Shown piece by piece: positions 3,046 through 40,362 of a DNA stretch of 64,000 nt. The stretch's first letter is position 1. Each line of letters starts with the position of its first letter. Origin of the DNA: Clostridia bacterium (GTDB lineage: Bacteria; Bacillota; Clostridia; Lachnospirales; Lachnospiraceae); the NCBI GenBank assembly GCA_910574255.1, contig CAJTAK010000007.1, positions 186,001-250,000 of the forward strand, given 5' to 3'. The position numbers and the translations under genes are program-made. The notes beneath the pieces are model-generated. The model did no database searches, had not been told where the DNA came from, and saw nothing but the letters and a program-made list of their open reading frames with translations.

Positions 3046-3233
3046 TTTGAAGTTCCGTAATATCTTATCAGCACACCTCATCTAAATCAATTCCCAGTCA
3101 CAAGTGCATGTGCCTGTTAATTGATTTGTGCTCTGTTAAGATATTACTGTTTGAAGTTCCGTAATATCTTATCAGCACACCTCATCTAAATCAATTCCTA
3201 GTCACAAGTGCATGTGCCTGTTAATTGATTTGT
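3046..3233. repeat. 84-bp direct repeat with nested palindromes
   Basis: Two copies, 3046-3129 and 3150-3233, differ at one base and are spaced 104 bp start to start. Copy 1 plus the 18 bases after it forms a hairpin (outer arms GTAATATCTTA at 3057 and TAAGATATTAC ending 3147; inner arms AAATCAATT/AATTGATTT). Copy 2 lacks the outer right arm. The pair fills the gap between the anti-sigma gene and the DUF4349 gene. Confidence 0.9.
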
Positions 3234-4713: not shown

Positions 4714-4833
4714 CTTAAGGGTCCCCCTCCCCTGCAAAATACGCGTCTTTTGCTTGTCTTTTACATATATAATAACGTATATGACTTAGGAATTACTACA
4801 AAAATCATTAATTTTTTTTTAAATGAGCCGGGC

Positions 4834-5033
4834 GTCAGAAAAATATCATATGCCAGACGGGGAGCTGGCTCACCGGATGGCATCTGATATTTTTCTGACA
4901 TAGGGCGAATGCCCCAAAGCGAGACTGCTTCTTTTGCAGTCGAGCTTGCACGGCGGACTATATCTGCGTCAGAAAAATATCATATGCCAGATGGGACGCT
5001 GGCTCACCGGATGGTATATGATATTTTTCTGAC
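4834..5033. repeat. Twin 66-bp palindromes
   Basis: Two near-identical hairpins, 4834-4899 and 4968-5033, each starting GTCAGAAAAATATCATATGCC and closing with the complement ATATTTTTCTGAC. The arms are about 22 bp and the loop holds GAGCTGGCTCACCGG or its variant. A small extra hairpin (GACTGC/GCAGTC, 4923-4940) sits between them. They lie between the 3' end of the vsr gene and the sigma-factor operon, and may act as terminators or as mobile palindromic units. Confidence 0.88.
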
Positions 5034-5057
5034 ATGAGGTAATCCAAATCAAAAGGC

Positions 5058-15766: not shown

Positions 15767-15961
15767 CACATTTTCAAAAATTTATTCTTTTTTTATTTTT
15801 TCATCAAACCCCAACCATCTCCCCAATCAAACCAAACCACCCAAACCCCACCACCTTACACACAAAAAATACGATTAAATTCAACGTCATAAAAATGAGC
15901 TTTTCCAACTTAAATCAATACCCTCACTATTCACCTTCCACATTCCGCCCATAAACAGGGT

Positions 15962-16180
15962 GTGCCGAAAAACAGGTCCGCAGACTTTTTCGATATCAGG
16001 TGTCCGGCTGTTTGCGTACACGCTGTATGATCTGGGCGAACATTACTCAAGATACCCAAAAGTCCTCAAAAACGTCCAAAGTAATGTCCGCTCAGAGCAT
16101 GCGGCGTGTACGCAAACCGTCCGAACACAGGATATGAAAAAGTCTGCGGACCTGTTTTGCGGCGCACCGTCCGTCCCCAC
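15962..16180 (-). repeat. Long covarying hairpin element, copy 1
   Basis: Inverted repeat with arms of about 85 bp (15962-16046 and 16081-16167) around a 34-nt loop, then CGTCCGTCCC at 16168-16177. It shares fixed motifs with copy 2 (22423-22640): GTGTCCGGCTGTT in the left arm, AACCGTCCGAACAC in the right arm and the terminal CGTCCGTCCC. Other arm segments differ between copies but stay paired. It lies downstream of the codY terminator. Orientation is given as minus because both copies follow minus-strand genes; the true strand and function are unknown. Confidence 0.85.
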
Positions 16181-16182
16181 AC

Positions 16183-16219
16183 AAAAAAAGCTGAACAGAA
16201 ATCCCACTCCCCATTCAGC
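16183..16219 (-). terminator. Rho-independent terminator after codY
   Basis: On the minus strand GCTGAA (16219-16214), an 18-nt loop, TTCAGC (16195-16190), then seven T residues. It starts 14 bp after the codY stop codon. Confidence 0.85.
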
Positions 16220-16232
16220 CTTCGTACCTCCA

Positions 16233-17006
16233 TCAAGCCTTTTTAAGCTTCTCCAACTCCTCAAACACCACATCATTCACCACTTTAATATACGTCCCCT
16301 TCATGCCCGAAGACCGGGACTCAATCACCCCTGCACTCTCAAACTTCCGAAGCGCATTCACAATCACAGACCGTGTAATCCCCACGCTATCCGCAATCCT
16401 GCTGGCCACCAGAATCCCTTCATTCCCCTTAAGCTCCGCAAAAATATGCGTAATAGCCTCCAGTTCCGAGAAAGACAGCGTACCAATCGCAGACTTCACA
16501 ATCTGAATCTTACGCTTCTCTTCCTCCGTCTCCTCATTCACAGAACGCATCATCTCCAGGCCAACCACCGTAGTGCCATACTCACTTAAGATAATATCAT
16601 CAATATCATACTGTTCCCTGTACTTATATAAGAAAAGTGTTCCCAACCGCTCTCCCGCAATATCAATGGGTGTGATGATCGCCTGATAATCCTGTACATT
16701 GTCAGACACAAAGCCCAGCGTCTGCAGATTCACATTCTCCTTGGTAGAGAGAATCCCCAGAAGCCGCTCATTCAGCGCCTCATCAATGTGATCTCCCACC
16801 TCTCCGGAAATCAACTCCCGAATCTCCTCTACACCCTCACAGCGACTGACTCCAAGAACCTTTCCCTTTCTGCTGAGCACCAGAATATTTGATTTCAAAA
16901 TATCCGTGAGAACCTGGCAGATATCATTAAATACAACCTTACTGGAATTGTTATTGTGAAGTAATTTGTTAATTTTTCTTGTCTTATCTAATAATTGTAC
17001 GCTCAC
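16233..17006 (-). CDS. codY: GTP-sensing global regulator CodY
   Basis: 257 aa. It starts SVQLLDKTRKINKLL and has the GAF-type sensor domain (about 1-155; VLTDILKSNILVLSRKGKVL, SRCEG) and a C-terminal winged HTH (about 200-257; ASRIADSVGITRSVIVNALR, then GVIESRSSGMKGTYIKV). CodY binds branched-chain amino acids and GTP and represses nutrient-uptake and sporulation genes in rich conditions. Two GTGs compete: 17012 is only 2 bp from the AGGAGG, whereas 17006 has ideal spacing and matches the usual MSVQLLDKTRK start, so 17006 is chosen. It lies downstream of topA with its own promoter. Confidence 0.95.
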   Translation of the reverse strand: MSVQLLDKTRKINKLLHNNNSSKVVFNDICQVLTDILKSNILVLSRKGKVLGVSRCEGVEEIRELISGEVGDHIDEALNERLLGILSTKENVNLQTLGFVSDNVQDYQAIITPIDIAGERLGTLFLYKYREQYDIDDIILSEYGTTVVGLEMMRSVNEETEEEKRKIQIVKSAIGTLSFSELEAITHIFAELKGNEGILVASRIADSVGITRSVIVNALRKFESAGVIESRSSGMKGTYIKVVNDVVFEELEKLKKA

Positions 17007-17051
17007 CCGCACCCCTCCTTTTGTAGAAGCCTAACCGAACATCATGCTGTG

Positions 17052-22422: not shown

Positions 22423-22640
22423 GGGAGCGAGCCAAAACCAGGACCGGACTTTTCCAATATCCCAGTGTCCGGCTGTTCACGCACACGCTGTTTCATATGA
22501 ACGGACAATGCCTCAAAAAATATCGCACCCAACTTTTTATAAAGGCAATGTCCGTGCAGAGCAAACAGCGTGTGCGTGAACCGTCCGAACACGGATATGG
22601 AAAAGTCCGGTCCTGGTTTTGGCTCGCTCCCGTCCGTCCC
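22423..22640 (-). repeat. Long covarying hairpin element, copy 2
   Basis: Inverted repeat with left arm from 22423 (GGGAGCGAGCC) and right arm ending 22631 (GGCTCGCTCCC), about 85 bp each, around a ~35-nt loop, then CGTCCGTCCC (22631-22640). It has the same fixed, partly mismatched core motifs as copy 1. On the minus strand it begins within 4 bp of the sigK stop codon, so it may form the sigK mRNA 3' end. Confidence 0.85.
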
Positions 22641-22643
22641 TCA

Positions 22644-23261
22644 CTAAAAATACTCCCTCAACTTCCCCAAAGCATTCTTCTCAATCCTGCTAATATAAGA
22701 ACGGGAAATTCCAAGCTGACCGGCAATCTCCCGTTGGGTGTATTCCTTTCCGTTATAAAGACCGTATCTCATAATCAAAACCTTTTGCTCCCTCGGCGTC
22801 AGCACTTGATCAAGAAGCTCATACAGCTTCTTACTGTCCGCCTTCAAACTAATCTGCGCAAACGCATCTCTCTCATTGCTCTCAATAATATCCAGCAGAT
22901 GAATCTCATTTCCTTCTTTATCCGTACCAATTGGTTCATAATAGGAAGTTTCCCTGGCTGTCTTTTTTCTGGCCCGGAAAAACATCAAAAGTTCATTCTC
23001 CACACAGCGGGCCGCATAAGTAGCAAGACGAGGCCCTTTTCCGCTGTCAAATGTGGTAACGGCCTTTATCAGGCCGATGGTACCAATGGAAATCAAATCC
23101 TCCACATCTTCCTCCGAGCCCTGATATTTCTTTACAATATGGGCTACCAGGCGAAGATTGTGCTCCACCAGGATATTACGTGCCTCAAGGTCTCCCTCCT
23201 TCAGCTTCTGCAGATAATATTGCTCCTCTTTGGCCGGTAGTGGTTGGGGAAAAGTCTTCAA
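22644..23261 (-). CDS. sigK: Sporulation sigma factor SigK
   Basis: 205 aa. It starts MKTFPQPLPAKEEQYYLQKL, then region 2 (ARNILVEHNLRLVAHIVKKY, DLISIGTIGLIKAVTTFD, RLATYAARCVENELLM) and region 4 (LTPREQKVLIMRYGLYNG, QREIAGQLGISRSYISRIE), as in SigK. It directs late mother-cell transcription in sporulation. The gene is whole, with no skin-type interruption. The start is a TTG at 23261 with SD GAGGTG, and that SD is inside one arm of a long inverted repeat (23262-23322). The stop is directly followed by hairpin element copy 2. The short N-terminus shows no long pro-sequence. Confidence 0.9.
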   Translation of the reverse strand: MKTFPQPLPAKEEQYYLQKLKEGDLEARNILVEHNLRLVAHIVKKYQGSEEDVEDLISIGTIGLIKAVTTFDSGKGPRLATYAARCVENELLMFFRARKKTARETSYYEPIGTDKEGNEIHLLDIIESNERDAFAQISLKADSKKLYELLDQVLTPREQKVLIMRYGLYNGKEYTQREIAGQLGISRSYISRIEKNALGKLREYF

Positions 23262-38886: not shown

Positions 38887-39015
38887 TTCTGAAGATTTTC
38901 TTAATACTGCCCTCTGTTTCTTGCTTTTTGGAACAAGGCTGATTATACTGGAAATAATATCTTTGCATATCAATGATATTTTATTATTTTAATGTGTATA
39001 ACAGGGGGGTATTTT

Positions 39016-40362
39016 ATGTCAAACAAATCCATGTGCAGACGGACAAGCATCTTATTTTCCGTACTGCTGGTGCTTTCACTATTTTTAACACCGTTAGGAC
39101 CGCAGCTTCATTCCCAGGCAGCCCGGGCTACAGGAACGGTTAAAAACCGTATCTTAAATGTCCGTTCCTCCGCTTCCACCAGTTCCTCAATCGTGTGCAA
39201 GCTGACCCAGGGCACAAAAGTAACCATTATTTCCGACACCACAGGAGATGACGGACTGAAATGGTATAATGTATACTTTGCCTACAACGGAGATGCAAAG
39301 GAGGGTTACGTGCGGGCCGATCTGGTAACGGTATCCGGAAGTGTTCCCGGCAGTTCCTCCGGCAGTACTTCTGCGAATGCAGCAGCCGGTTCCGGTTCTA
39401 CCCGTTATGTAAAGCCCGCTGTGGCTCTTGTCCGTACCTACGCTTCTACCAATGGTGATATTCGCTCTCGTCTGGAACGGGGAACAGCCGTTACCGTTCT
39501 CTCATCTACCACCGGAAGTGATGACAAAAGGACCTGGTACGAAGTTTCCTTTACCAAAAACGGAACTACTATGAAAGGCTTTATGCGCGGAGATCTGCTG
39601 GTTGAAACCAACCCCGGCGGCAGCAGCTCCAATACCACGGATGTGTCCGGCGTTCGGTATATCAATGTGGACACTGCCCTGATCCGCACCTATGCTTCCA
39701 CCAACGGAGATATTCGTTCAAGGCTTTCAAGGGGCACTGAAGTCACTTTAGTTTCCTCTGAAACCGGAGCCGACAAAGCCCTCTGGTATAAAATCTCCTA
39801 CAAGGAGAACGGCAGCTCTTTAAAAGGCTATGTCCGCTCTGACCTGCTCACTCAGAACAACCCGGGAACCAGTTCCGGCAATTCTTCAGCCGGAATCTCC
39901 AATCAGGCCGCTGCGGTAAAACCGGCTGTGGCAAATATCCGCACTTATGCTTCCACCCGCGGAGACATTCGTTCCAAGCTCAGCAGCGGAACCAATGTTA
40001 CGATCCTCTCGGAAACTACAGGGGATGACGGACGGAAATGGTATGAGATCTCTTATACCTATAACGGTACCGCTCTTAAGGGTTATATTCGAAGTGATCT
40101 GGTGACTATCGGGGCCGCAACAGGAAGCAATAGCAGCGGTTCTTCCAGCGGAGGCAGCGCCAACACCAACACGCCGGCTGTTGCTCAGGTGCGCACTTAC
40201 GCCTCCCCTTATGCCGATATCCGTGCCACCCTGCAGAATGGCACAAAGGTTACAATCCTGAAGACCGTTACTGGGGAAGACGGAGAAAAATGGACTAAGA
40301 TTTCCTTCACACAGGACGGAACCCTGATGAAAGGATATGTTCCTTCCTCTATGCTGAAATAG
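39016..40362 (+). CDS. Secreted protein with five bacterial SH3 domains
   Basis: 448 aa from ATG 39016 (SD AGGGGGG). The signal peptide is within the first ~36 residues (ILFSVLLVLSLFLTPLG). Five SH3 (SH3_3-type) repeats follow, about residues 40-105, 128-195, 212-278, 300-365 and 385-448, each built on VRTYAS...GDIRSRL, GT.VT(I/L)(L/V)S, WY.(I/V)S(F/Y) and KGY(V/I)RSDL, joined by Ser/Gly-rich linkers. Such repeats often bind peptidoglycan, but no enzymatic domain is present. The DNA repeats are diverged, so the array is not a recent duplication. Own terminator follows at 40380. Confidence 0.9.
   Translation: MSNKSMCRRTSILFSVLLVLSLFLTPLGPQLHSQAARATGTVKNRILNVRSSASTSSSIVCKLTQGTKVTIISDTTGDDGLKWYNVYFAYNGDAKEGYVRADLVTVSGSVPGSSSGSTSANAAAGSGSTRYVKPAVALVRTYASTNGDIRSRLERGTAVTVLSSTTGSDDKRTWYEVSFTKNGTTMKGFMRGDLLVETNPGGSSSNTTDVSGVRYINVDTALIRTYASTNGDIRSRLSRGTEVTLVSSETGADKALWYKISYKENGSSLKGYVRSDLLTQNNPGTSSGNSSAGISNQAAAVKPAVANIRTYASTRGDIRSKLSSGTNVTILSETTGDDGRKWYEISYTYNGTALKGYIRSDLVTIGAATGSNSSGSSSGGSANTNTPAVAQVRTYASPYADIRATLQNGTKVTILKTVTGEDGEKWTKISFTQDGTLMKGYVPSSMLK

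Follow-up and report, generated by a model that had tools for sequence, protein, structure and literature searches.

Locus and predicted fold

The window, as we call the whole stretch of 64,000 nt that was analysed, contains two copies of a long hairpin element, the first next to codY, from which a canonical terminator separates it, and the second next to a gene for a sigma-70 family factor (Table 1). The region 15940-16200, which covers copy 1, has a predicted folding energy of -136.6 kcal/mol against -66.3 +/- 4.2 for shuffled sequences (z -16.7; 0 of 200 shuffles equal it) and is folded into one long hairpin, with arms at 15959-16047 and 16080-16168 around a 32-nt loop. The initial annotation, which had proposed arms of about 85 bp and a loop of 34 nt, was right within a few bases, as were its coordinates. 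It had further pointed to arm sequences that differ between the two copies while pairing is kept, and to mismatched motifs that do not change; the arm differences are present in both sequences as quoted, and GTGTCCGGCTGTT, AACCGTCCGAACAC and CGTCCGTCCC are the same in copy 1 and copy 2.

The sole Rfam match in the window, a GA-cis RNA (RF02987; 30545-30630, + strand; 37.1 bits against a gathering threshold of 34.7), lies away from the element. Other repeats are found at 4832-5035 (70-nt direct repeats, 93% alike, which also form an inverted pair), at 3046-3233 (an 84-nt direct repeat pair, 99% alike, with a start-to-start spacing of 104) and at 39430-40253, where a 65-nt repeat occurs four times at a spacing of 252-255 bp within the ORF 38992-40362.

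Table 1. Coordinates in the window of the two hairpin copies, their parts and the adjoining genes
Feature	Position	Strand	Description	Evidence
Hairpin element copy 1, whole	15959..16168	+	flanked by the 3' end of codY and the promoter region of groES	fold z, arm extension, orthologue L200 in G012
Left outer arm, copy 1	15959..15999	+	variable stem, then conserved TTTTTCGATATC segment	arm extension, covariation
Left core GTGTCCGGCTGTT, conserved	16000..16012	+	some positions mismatched against the right arm	
Left inner stem, copy 1	16013..16047	+	includes one side of an internal loop	
Terminal loop, copy 1	16048..16079	+		
Right inner stem, copy 1	16080..16114	+	carries the AGAGC side of the internal loop	
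Right core AACCGTCCGAACAC, conserved	16115..16128	+	bulged T	
Right outer arm, copy 1	16129..16168	+		arm extension, covariation
Right foot GTCCGTCCCC, copy 1	16169..16178	+	unpaired; faces the codY 3' end	
Hairpin element copy 2	22423..22631	+	right end 12 nt from the stop codon of the sigma-70 family gene	
Right foot GTCCGTCCC, copy 2	22632..22640	+		
codY	16233..17012	-	3' end faces copy 1	Pfam CodY, 1.2e-37
Sigma-70 family gene	22644..23261	-	stop codon abuts copy 2	Pfam Sigma70_r2/r4

Copy number and distribution

A BLAST search of the genome to which the window belongs (G000; 5.04 Mb in 78 contigs) yields 63 matches at E <= 10, many of which cover only half an element or are the same palindrome matched on its other strand. 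Both core motifs, with at most three substitutions each, are found at 35 distinct places (two of them, L041 and L043, being loose) out of 40 loci, the other five lacking them. We built a covariance model from 26 of these 35 places, leaving out those with nested inserts (L011, L015, L029, L033, L034 and L038), those with loose or short cores (L041 and L043) and L019, whose left arm copies its right arm.

The model matches 15 of the 16 genomes of the genus: at least 48 times each in G000, G002, G007, G012 and G013, 41 times in G005 and between one and 19 times in nine others. As it matches both strands of a palindrome (13 elements yield 26 full matches and one partial), these counts may be up to twice the number of places; among the matches listed, more than 30 distinct places each are found in G002, G007 and G013. 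The genus member G004 gives no match, nor do 45 genomes outside the genus, in searches that filter more strictly once they cover more than 40 genomes, so that weak relatives could escape. A motif scan of GTDB species genomes, in which the exact right motif was required, recovers at least 113 stretches; among the matches listed (80), the sources are three 'Clostridia bacterium' assemblies, one Lachnoclostridium assembly and bacterium 1XD21-13. An exact-pattern search of IMG/VR viral contigs and a similarity search of plasmid and phage records with copy 1 return no match.

The covariance-model search of related genomes had been proposed in the initial annotation, which would have taken a lack of copies there as evidence against a selected structure; the relatives do hold further copies. 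Its remark that no named family matches is likewise borne out, since no Rfam family covers the element at the gathering or the permissive threshold (the best overlap, MIR4239, scores 43.1 bits where 100 are required), and we find no description of the hairpin family in Rfam or in searches of the open-licence PMC literature. We regard these sequences as almost certainly a genus-restricted family of non-coding extragenic palindromes.

Anatomy of the element

The anatomy was drawn from 161 copies with both core motifs, pooled over loci; being retrieved via the core, they under-sample decayed copies. The typical order is a CCA foot, the left arm, the core, the right arm and a foot of GTCC or GTCCGTCC, and profiles of 134-135 copies end in CCA on the left and begin with GTCC(GTCC) on the right. 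The outer stem of about 28 bp is free in sequence; the left arm is exactly 42 nt long in 60 of the 161 copies, the right arm usually 40-41 nt, and the core often about 128 nt, or about 98 nt in a sub-family that we term class A. Left outer arms share a mean identity of 58% between copies, whereas within copies 4416 arm columns form Watson-Crick pairs against 179 that do not (138 distinct arms, themselves delimited by extension while paired). The conserved core, GTGTCCGGCTGTT opposite AACCGTCCGAACAC, has fixed bulges, and near-invariant positions include TTTTCC, an extra base (mostly A or G) before ATATC, GTGTCCGG and CCGTCCGAACAC. The loop is A/C-rich (A 44.8, C 31.4, G 10.0 and T 13.7% on the + strand of 128 copies). 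An automated internal-loop label was left unused, as 143 of 160 copies fell under 'other'. Two kinds of inner stem, one with ACGGACA and the other with TTGGCGGAC and GTCCGACAA, occur at orthologous sites that share their outer arms (L016 against L094, L143, L218 and L219; L097 against L171), which suggests exchange between copies.

The core is not symmetric, and this asymmetry is kept. Among 110 distinct sites with the exact right motif in loci of the named genomes, 100 have the asymmetric left core, one has a left arm that copies the right, seven lack a full left arm and two lie at an edge; hence 100 of 101 complete copies are asymmetric in a scan that, being anchored on the right motif, is blind to rewritten right arms. 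An unanchored core search of all collected loci finds 127 asymmetric cores, no symmetric core of the left type and two of the right type (L019 and L154). Further copies in the form of perfect inverted repeats, the pattern of ordinary MITEs that the initial annotation had set against its proposal, are thus not what is seen. The asymmetric core looks to be under selection, and its preservation is the strongest sign of selection in the family, ahead of the paired drift.

Paired drift across copies and orthologues

For the study of covariation we aligned 30 copies whose paired arms and cores are of standard length, taking a single copy per group from 30 of the 62 independent groups. Paired cells make up 97.1% of this alignment against 81.0% in shuffles, a percentage raised by the choice of copies with long paired arms, although the comparisons with shuffled and with slid partners still stand. 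Sliding the partner by one to three columns leaves 32-47% of the cells paired. Double changes occupy 354 cells versus 83.5 in shuffles (0 of 500 shuffles are as high) and affect 52 of 80 pairs versus 30.2; the covariation score is 0.447 against 0.130 when shuffled, and at several outer pairs all four Watson-Crick types are represented.

The same drift is seen at orthologous sites. Copy 1 has an orthologue between the same genes in G012 (L200). For copy 2, orthologues occur in G002, G005, G007 and G013, with a rearranged form in G012, and the orthologues of both copies in other species show compensatory changes. The more distant G010, G014 and G015, and G011 in a short form, carry at the gene end of copy 2 a hairpin that is still recognisable and shares the core. 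At the end of the sigma-factor gene in G014, G010 and G015 (L224, L225 and L227), extra left halves like TATCCnnGTGTCCGGCT stand in tandem before the full hairpin.

From 78 right-flank pairs of orthologous copies, 48 passed filters on identity, arm length and anchors; these pairs overlap, and some near-identical ones may be two assemblies of one species. Their outer stems have 182 changed columns: in 131 a double change leaves a Watson-Crick pair (81 transversions and 50 transitions), 48 have a mispair in one partner (21 G.T, 13 A.C and 14 other) and three are mispaired in both. Adjacent double changes number 38 where 25.5 are expected (3 of 2000 simulations are as high), and, in the 22 pairs whose left flanks could be aligned, the mean divergence per stem column (0.068) is close to that per flank base (0.071). 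Such flank-like divergence of the stem and the adjacency of double changes fit a concerted copying of one arm onto the other, with selection still compatible. In the 14 pairs with a flank divergence below 0.035, four one-sided changes stand against one double change, so that correction of the arms is not immediate and needs time.

Template switching in the hairpins of RNA genes has been proposed to yield multi-base compensatory changes and perfect stems (PMC8794818); the mechanism is put forward there for RNA genes, and here it would act on many dispersed elements. The initial annotation had taken paired drift with fixed unpaired motifs as the mark of a selected RNA or single-stranded DNA structure. 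The pattern itself holds genus-wide, whereas the step to selection is not secured by it, given the excess of transversions, the clustering of double changes and a stem that changes at the rate of its flank, all of which template switching would also give without selection on pairing. We consider it probable that hairpin template switching, together with selection, keeps the arms complementary.

Position at gene ends and strand

The elements have a one-sided relation to genes. Genes were called by an ORF rule: on the right, a minus-strand ORF of 110 codons or more whose end lies no further than 250 nt from the right foot; on the left, a plus-strand ORF whose end lies no further than 300 nt from the left foot. 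At the right foot, 38 of the 161 copies lack a called gene. Of the 123 that have one, 71 end in a stop codon no more than 16 nt from the foot, and on the left the same holds for 5 of 97; counted by independent groups, the figures are 26 of 45 versus 3 of 45. As copies are oriented by their core, this bias is a preference in orientation too. The neighbouring genes are of many kinds: 20 of 26 were scanned, and 15 match a Pfam family at 1e-8 and five none, the range including a kinase, a PPIase, a sigma factor, chemotaxis receptors, a permease, spore germination, and purine and carbohydrate enzymes, among others. An element stands at the sigma-factor gene end in 9 of the 15 readable genomes.

On the gene-sense strand, the eight bases beyond the hairpin contain a mean of 3.74 U against 1.87 on the other side; four or more U are present in 39 of the 61 groups on the former side and in 3 of the 61 on the latter. 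The stretch usually found there, however, is UGGUUUU, and this falls short of a normal U-tract in strength. In element-free relatives a terminator follows the same gene, by a loose rule, in 11 of 13 cases for codY, 11 of 14 for the gene at L032, 5 of 11 for that at L023 and 3 of 6 for the sigma-factor gene. A crude and uninformative count puts a terminator beyond the hairpin in 2 of 29 groups versus 48 of 294 element-free ends. As copy 1 lies beyond the canonical terminator of codY, the element is not needed as a terminator there.

Other signs concern the + strand. The left flank is A/C-rich on this strand, on which loop and left flank are both G-poor, and G.T mispairs exceed A.C (67:27; 39:15 in non-redundant arms), features that would suit a folded + strand, either as RNA or as single-stranded DNA. 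The whole + strand folds better in only 22 of the 62 groups; the stem by itself is neutral, and the outer arms slightly favour +. Since the + strand signs point opposite to a gene-sense RNA, they count against the explanation that we prefer below.

Mobility and nested inserts

Class A, with a length of about 181 bp and inverted ends GGGGCTGTCGGGAAATAAGACAG, occurs as near-identical copies at unrelated sites; in the own genome its end is matched at 95% identity or more at nine places with unrelated flanks. Judged by these sequences, this sub-family looks recently mobile. We inspected 11 class A-like copies for target duplications, setting aside L025 and L034 for misplaced ends: none of the nine with readable ends has a direct duplication, and seven of them have flanks that continue the palindrome. 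AAA...TTT is the reading of most class A flanks. With relatives that share only 76-91% identity at these genes, the comparison yielded no clean empty site.

A search of the own genome for an autonomous partner between like ends found none. One candidate, an autonomous insertion sequence between two class A ends on contig C11, was rejected, the ends being remnant-like and the enclosed ORF an iron-sulphur protein, as recognised by eye only. Captured target DNA as the source of the outer arms was likewise rejected, given that arm length is constant (42 nt in 60 of 161 left arms) and that orthologues share their arms. Y1 transposases (PF01797) are encoded in 8 of the 16 genus genomes, and their presence does not follow the copy number of the element; G007, with more than 30 places, has no match, on which ground a RAYT/Y1 transposase was rejected as a requirement.

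At L045, L046, L047 and L048 in the own genome, short hairpins consisting of GGGGCTGTCGGGAAATAAGACAGCCCC and its variants seem to be class A ends from which the core was deleted between short repeats. A hairpin insert of about 38 nt, AATAAGGAGGGACCCACAAGGTGGGAGGATTCCTTATT or near variants of it, is seen in the right arm at L011, L029, L033, L034, L040, L053 and L221, always after TCCGAAC (7 of 7 inspected); its pattern occurs at 10 places in 3 of the 16 genus genomes. The insert looks like a parasite of the element.

Comparison with known systems

Several known systems share features with the family. REP, BIME and REPIN elements are also dispersed in many copies as extragenic palindromes by gene ends and mobile without genes of their own (PMC2817692). 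The REP heads listed there are GTAG-type; our elements are far longer than those in that account, have CCA and GTCC feet and no GTAG-type head, and vary freely in the outer stem, which in REPs is conserved. The REP-like 3'-end position is thus present, while the GTAG-type foot is absent and the carrier genomes do not consistently have a RAYT-type Y1 transposase. Efa (of Enterococcus faecalis), Ype and Bor are stem-loop repeats near the 3' ends of coding sequences, like those seen here, and have been suggested to act in mRNA stability (PMC1590033). The section of that paper on these repeats presents them as sequence families, with no report of a fixed-length free outer stem or of compensatory drift, and we set the present family apart from them by description, not by sequence. 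Class A has the inverted terminal repeats, short length, dispersal and lack of coding capacity of MITEs, and in the nine copies with readable ends it shows no direct target duplication.

Integron attC sites carry the box RYYYAAC in the 5' arm and GTTRRRY in the 3' arm. They resemble the family in being hairpins of variable sequence and conserved structure, with unpaired address bases, that stand after stop codons. Our elements, in contrast, have GTT in the 5' arm and AAC in the 3' arm, whichever strand is read, and are dispersed after unrelated genes rather than collected in cassette arrays. The family lacks the tested defining features of REPINs and of attC sites and has those of MITEs in part only.

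Interpretation

Our preferred explanation, to which as a whole chain we give a probability of roughly 45%, is that of a genus-specific REP- or MITE-like extragenic palindrome that acts at gene 3' ends, with arms that are copied and a core that is read. Each copy would be an element of a gene 3' end, in which the hairpin and the U-rich stretch on the gene-sense strand may stop or shield the transcript. Switching of the polymerase template inside the hairpin would copy one arm onto the other and so keep their complementarity, and selection would remove copies with a broken fold. The fixed bulges, with GTGTCCGG and CCGTCCGAACAC, may be held by a putative protein or other factor that reads the folded form, and this factor might serve the 3'-end function or the mobility of the element in trans. 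More tentatively, the element could be a shape-defined 3'-end mark, whose free stem is rewritten by template switching and whose fold and few unpaired bases are read, as RNA or as extruded single-stranded DNA, by the putative factor.

The family might instead be merely MITE-like, with old copies that stay put, template switching that homogenises the arms, and gene conversion between copies together with recent re-insertion that keeps the cores alike. The dispersed and near-identical class A copies agree with this, as do the short remnants that look core-deleted and the inner cores that differ in kind between sites sharing their outer arms (L097 and L171; L016 and L094, L143, L218 and L219). 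We nonetheless think it rather unlikely, as passive debris would not be expected to take a one-sided position next to stop codons or to stand at the sigma-factor gene end in 9 of 15 readable genomes; moreover, direct target duplications are missing from the nine readable class A copies, no autonomous partner is seen between like ends in the own genome, and a strict pattern finds no lone left arms in the collected loci, divergent lone left halves being those of L224, L225 and L227.

Distinctly less probable is a selected + strand RNA, antisense to the right-hand gene, in which ordinary compensatory selection keeps the pairing. It would account for the A/C-rich loop and left flank on that strand, for the preponderance of G.T over A.C (39:15) in non-redundant arms and for G.U polymorphism at the A1 core pairs 9-159, 38-130 and 59-109, but the same A/C-rich flank speaks against a promoter, the + strand folds better in no more than 22 of 62 groups, and change by way of G.U should favour transitions, whereas transversions prevail among the double changes (81 versus 50).

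We give still less credence to an attC-like site of folded single-stranded DNA on which a recombinase or transposase would act, with its shape read and its bulges as addresses: the variable stem with fixed extrahelical bases, the position after stop codons and the constant placing of the 38-nt insert after TCCGAAC in the right arm (7 of 7 places) are what such a site might show, yet the AAC and GTT triplets lie in the arms opposite to those of the attC boxes, and there is neither an array nor an excised cassette. Least credible are plain intrinsic terminators, long by chance, which would explain the stop-proximal position, the U polarity, the AAA...TTT flanks of most class A copies and the frequency of terminators after the same gene in element-free relatives (codY 11/13 by the loose rule), but for which a conserved asymmetric core, 80 bp of stem and a fixed orientation are all unnecessary; copy 1, moreover, lies beyond the codY terminator.

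Compensatory change is usually read as proof of a selected RNA, and how to separate selection on structure from the mutational copying of arms is a long-argued point. With tens of separately evolving copies per genome, orthologues spread over many divergences, neighbouring flanks as a comparison and asymmetric positions that resist homogenisation, the two become separable in this family. Should a factor read the core, the genus would possess a system at the 3' ends of its genes that is so far undescribed; should the shape-defined mark be true, the elements would form a new class at the ends of bacterial genes and would naturally record template switching in hairpins.
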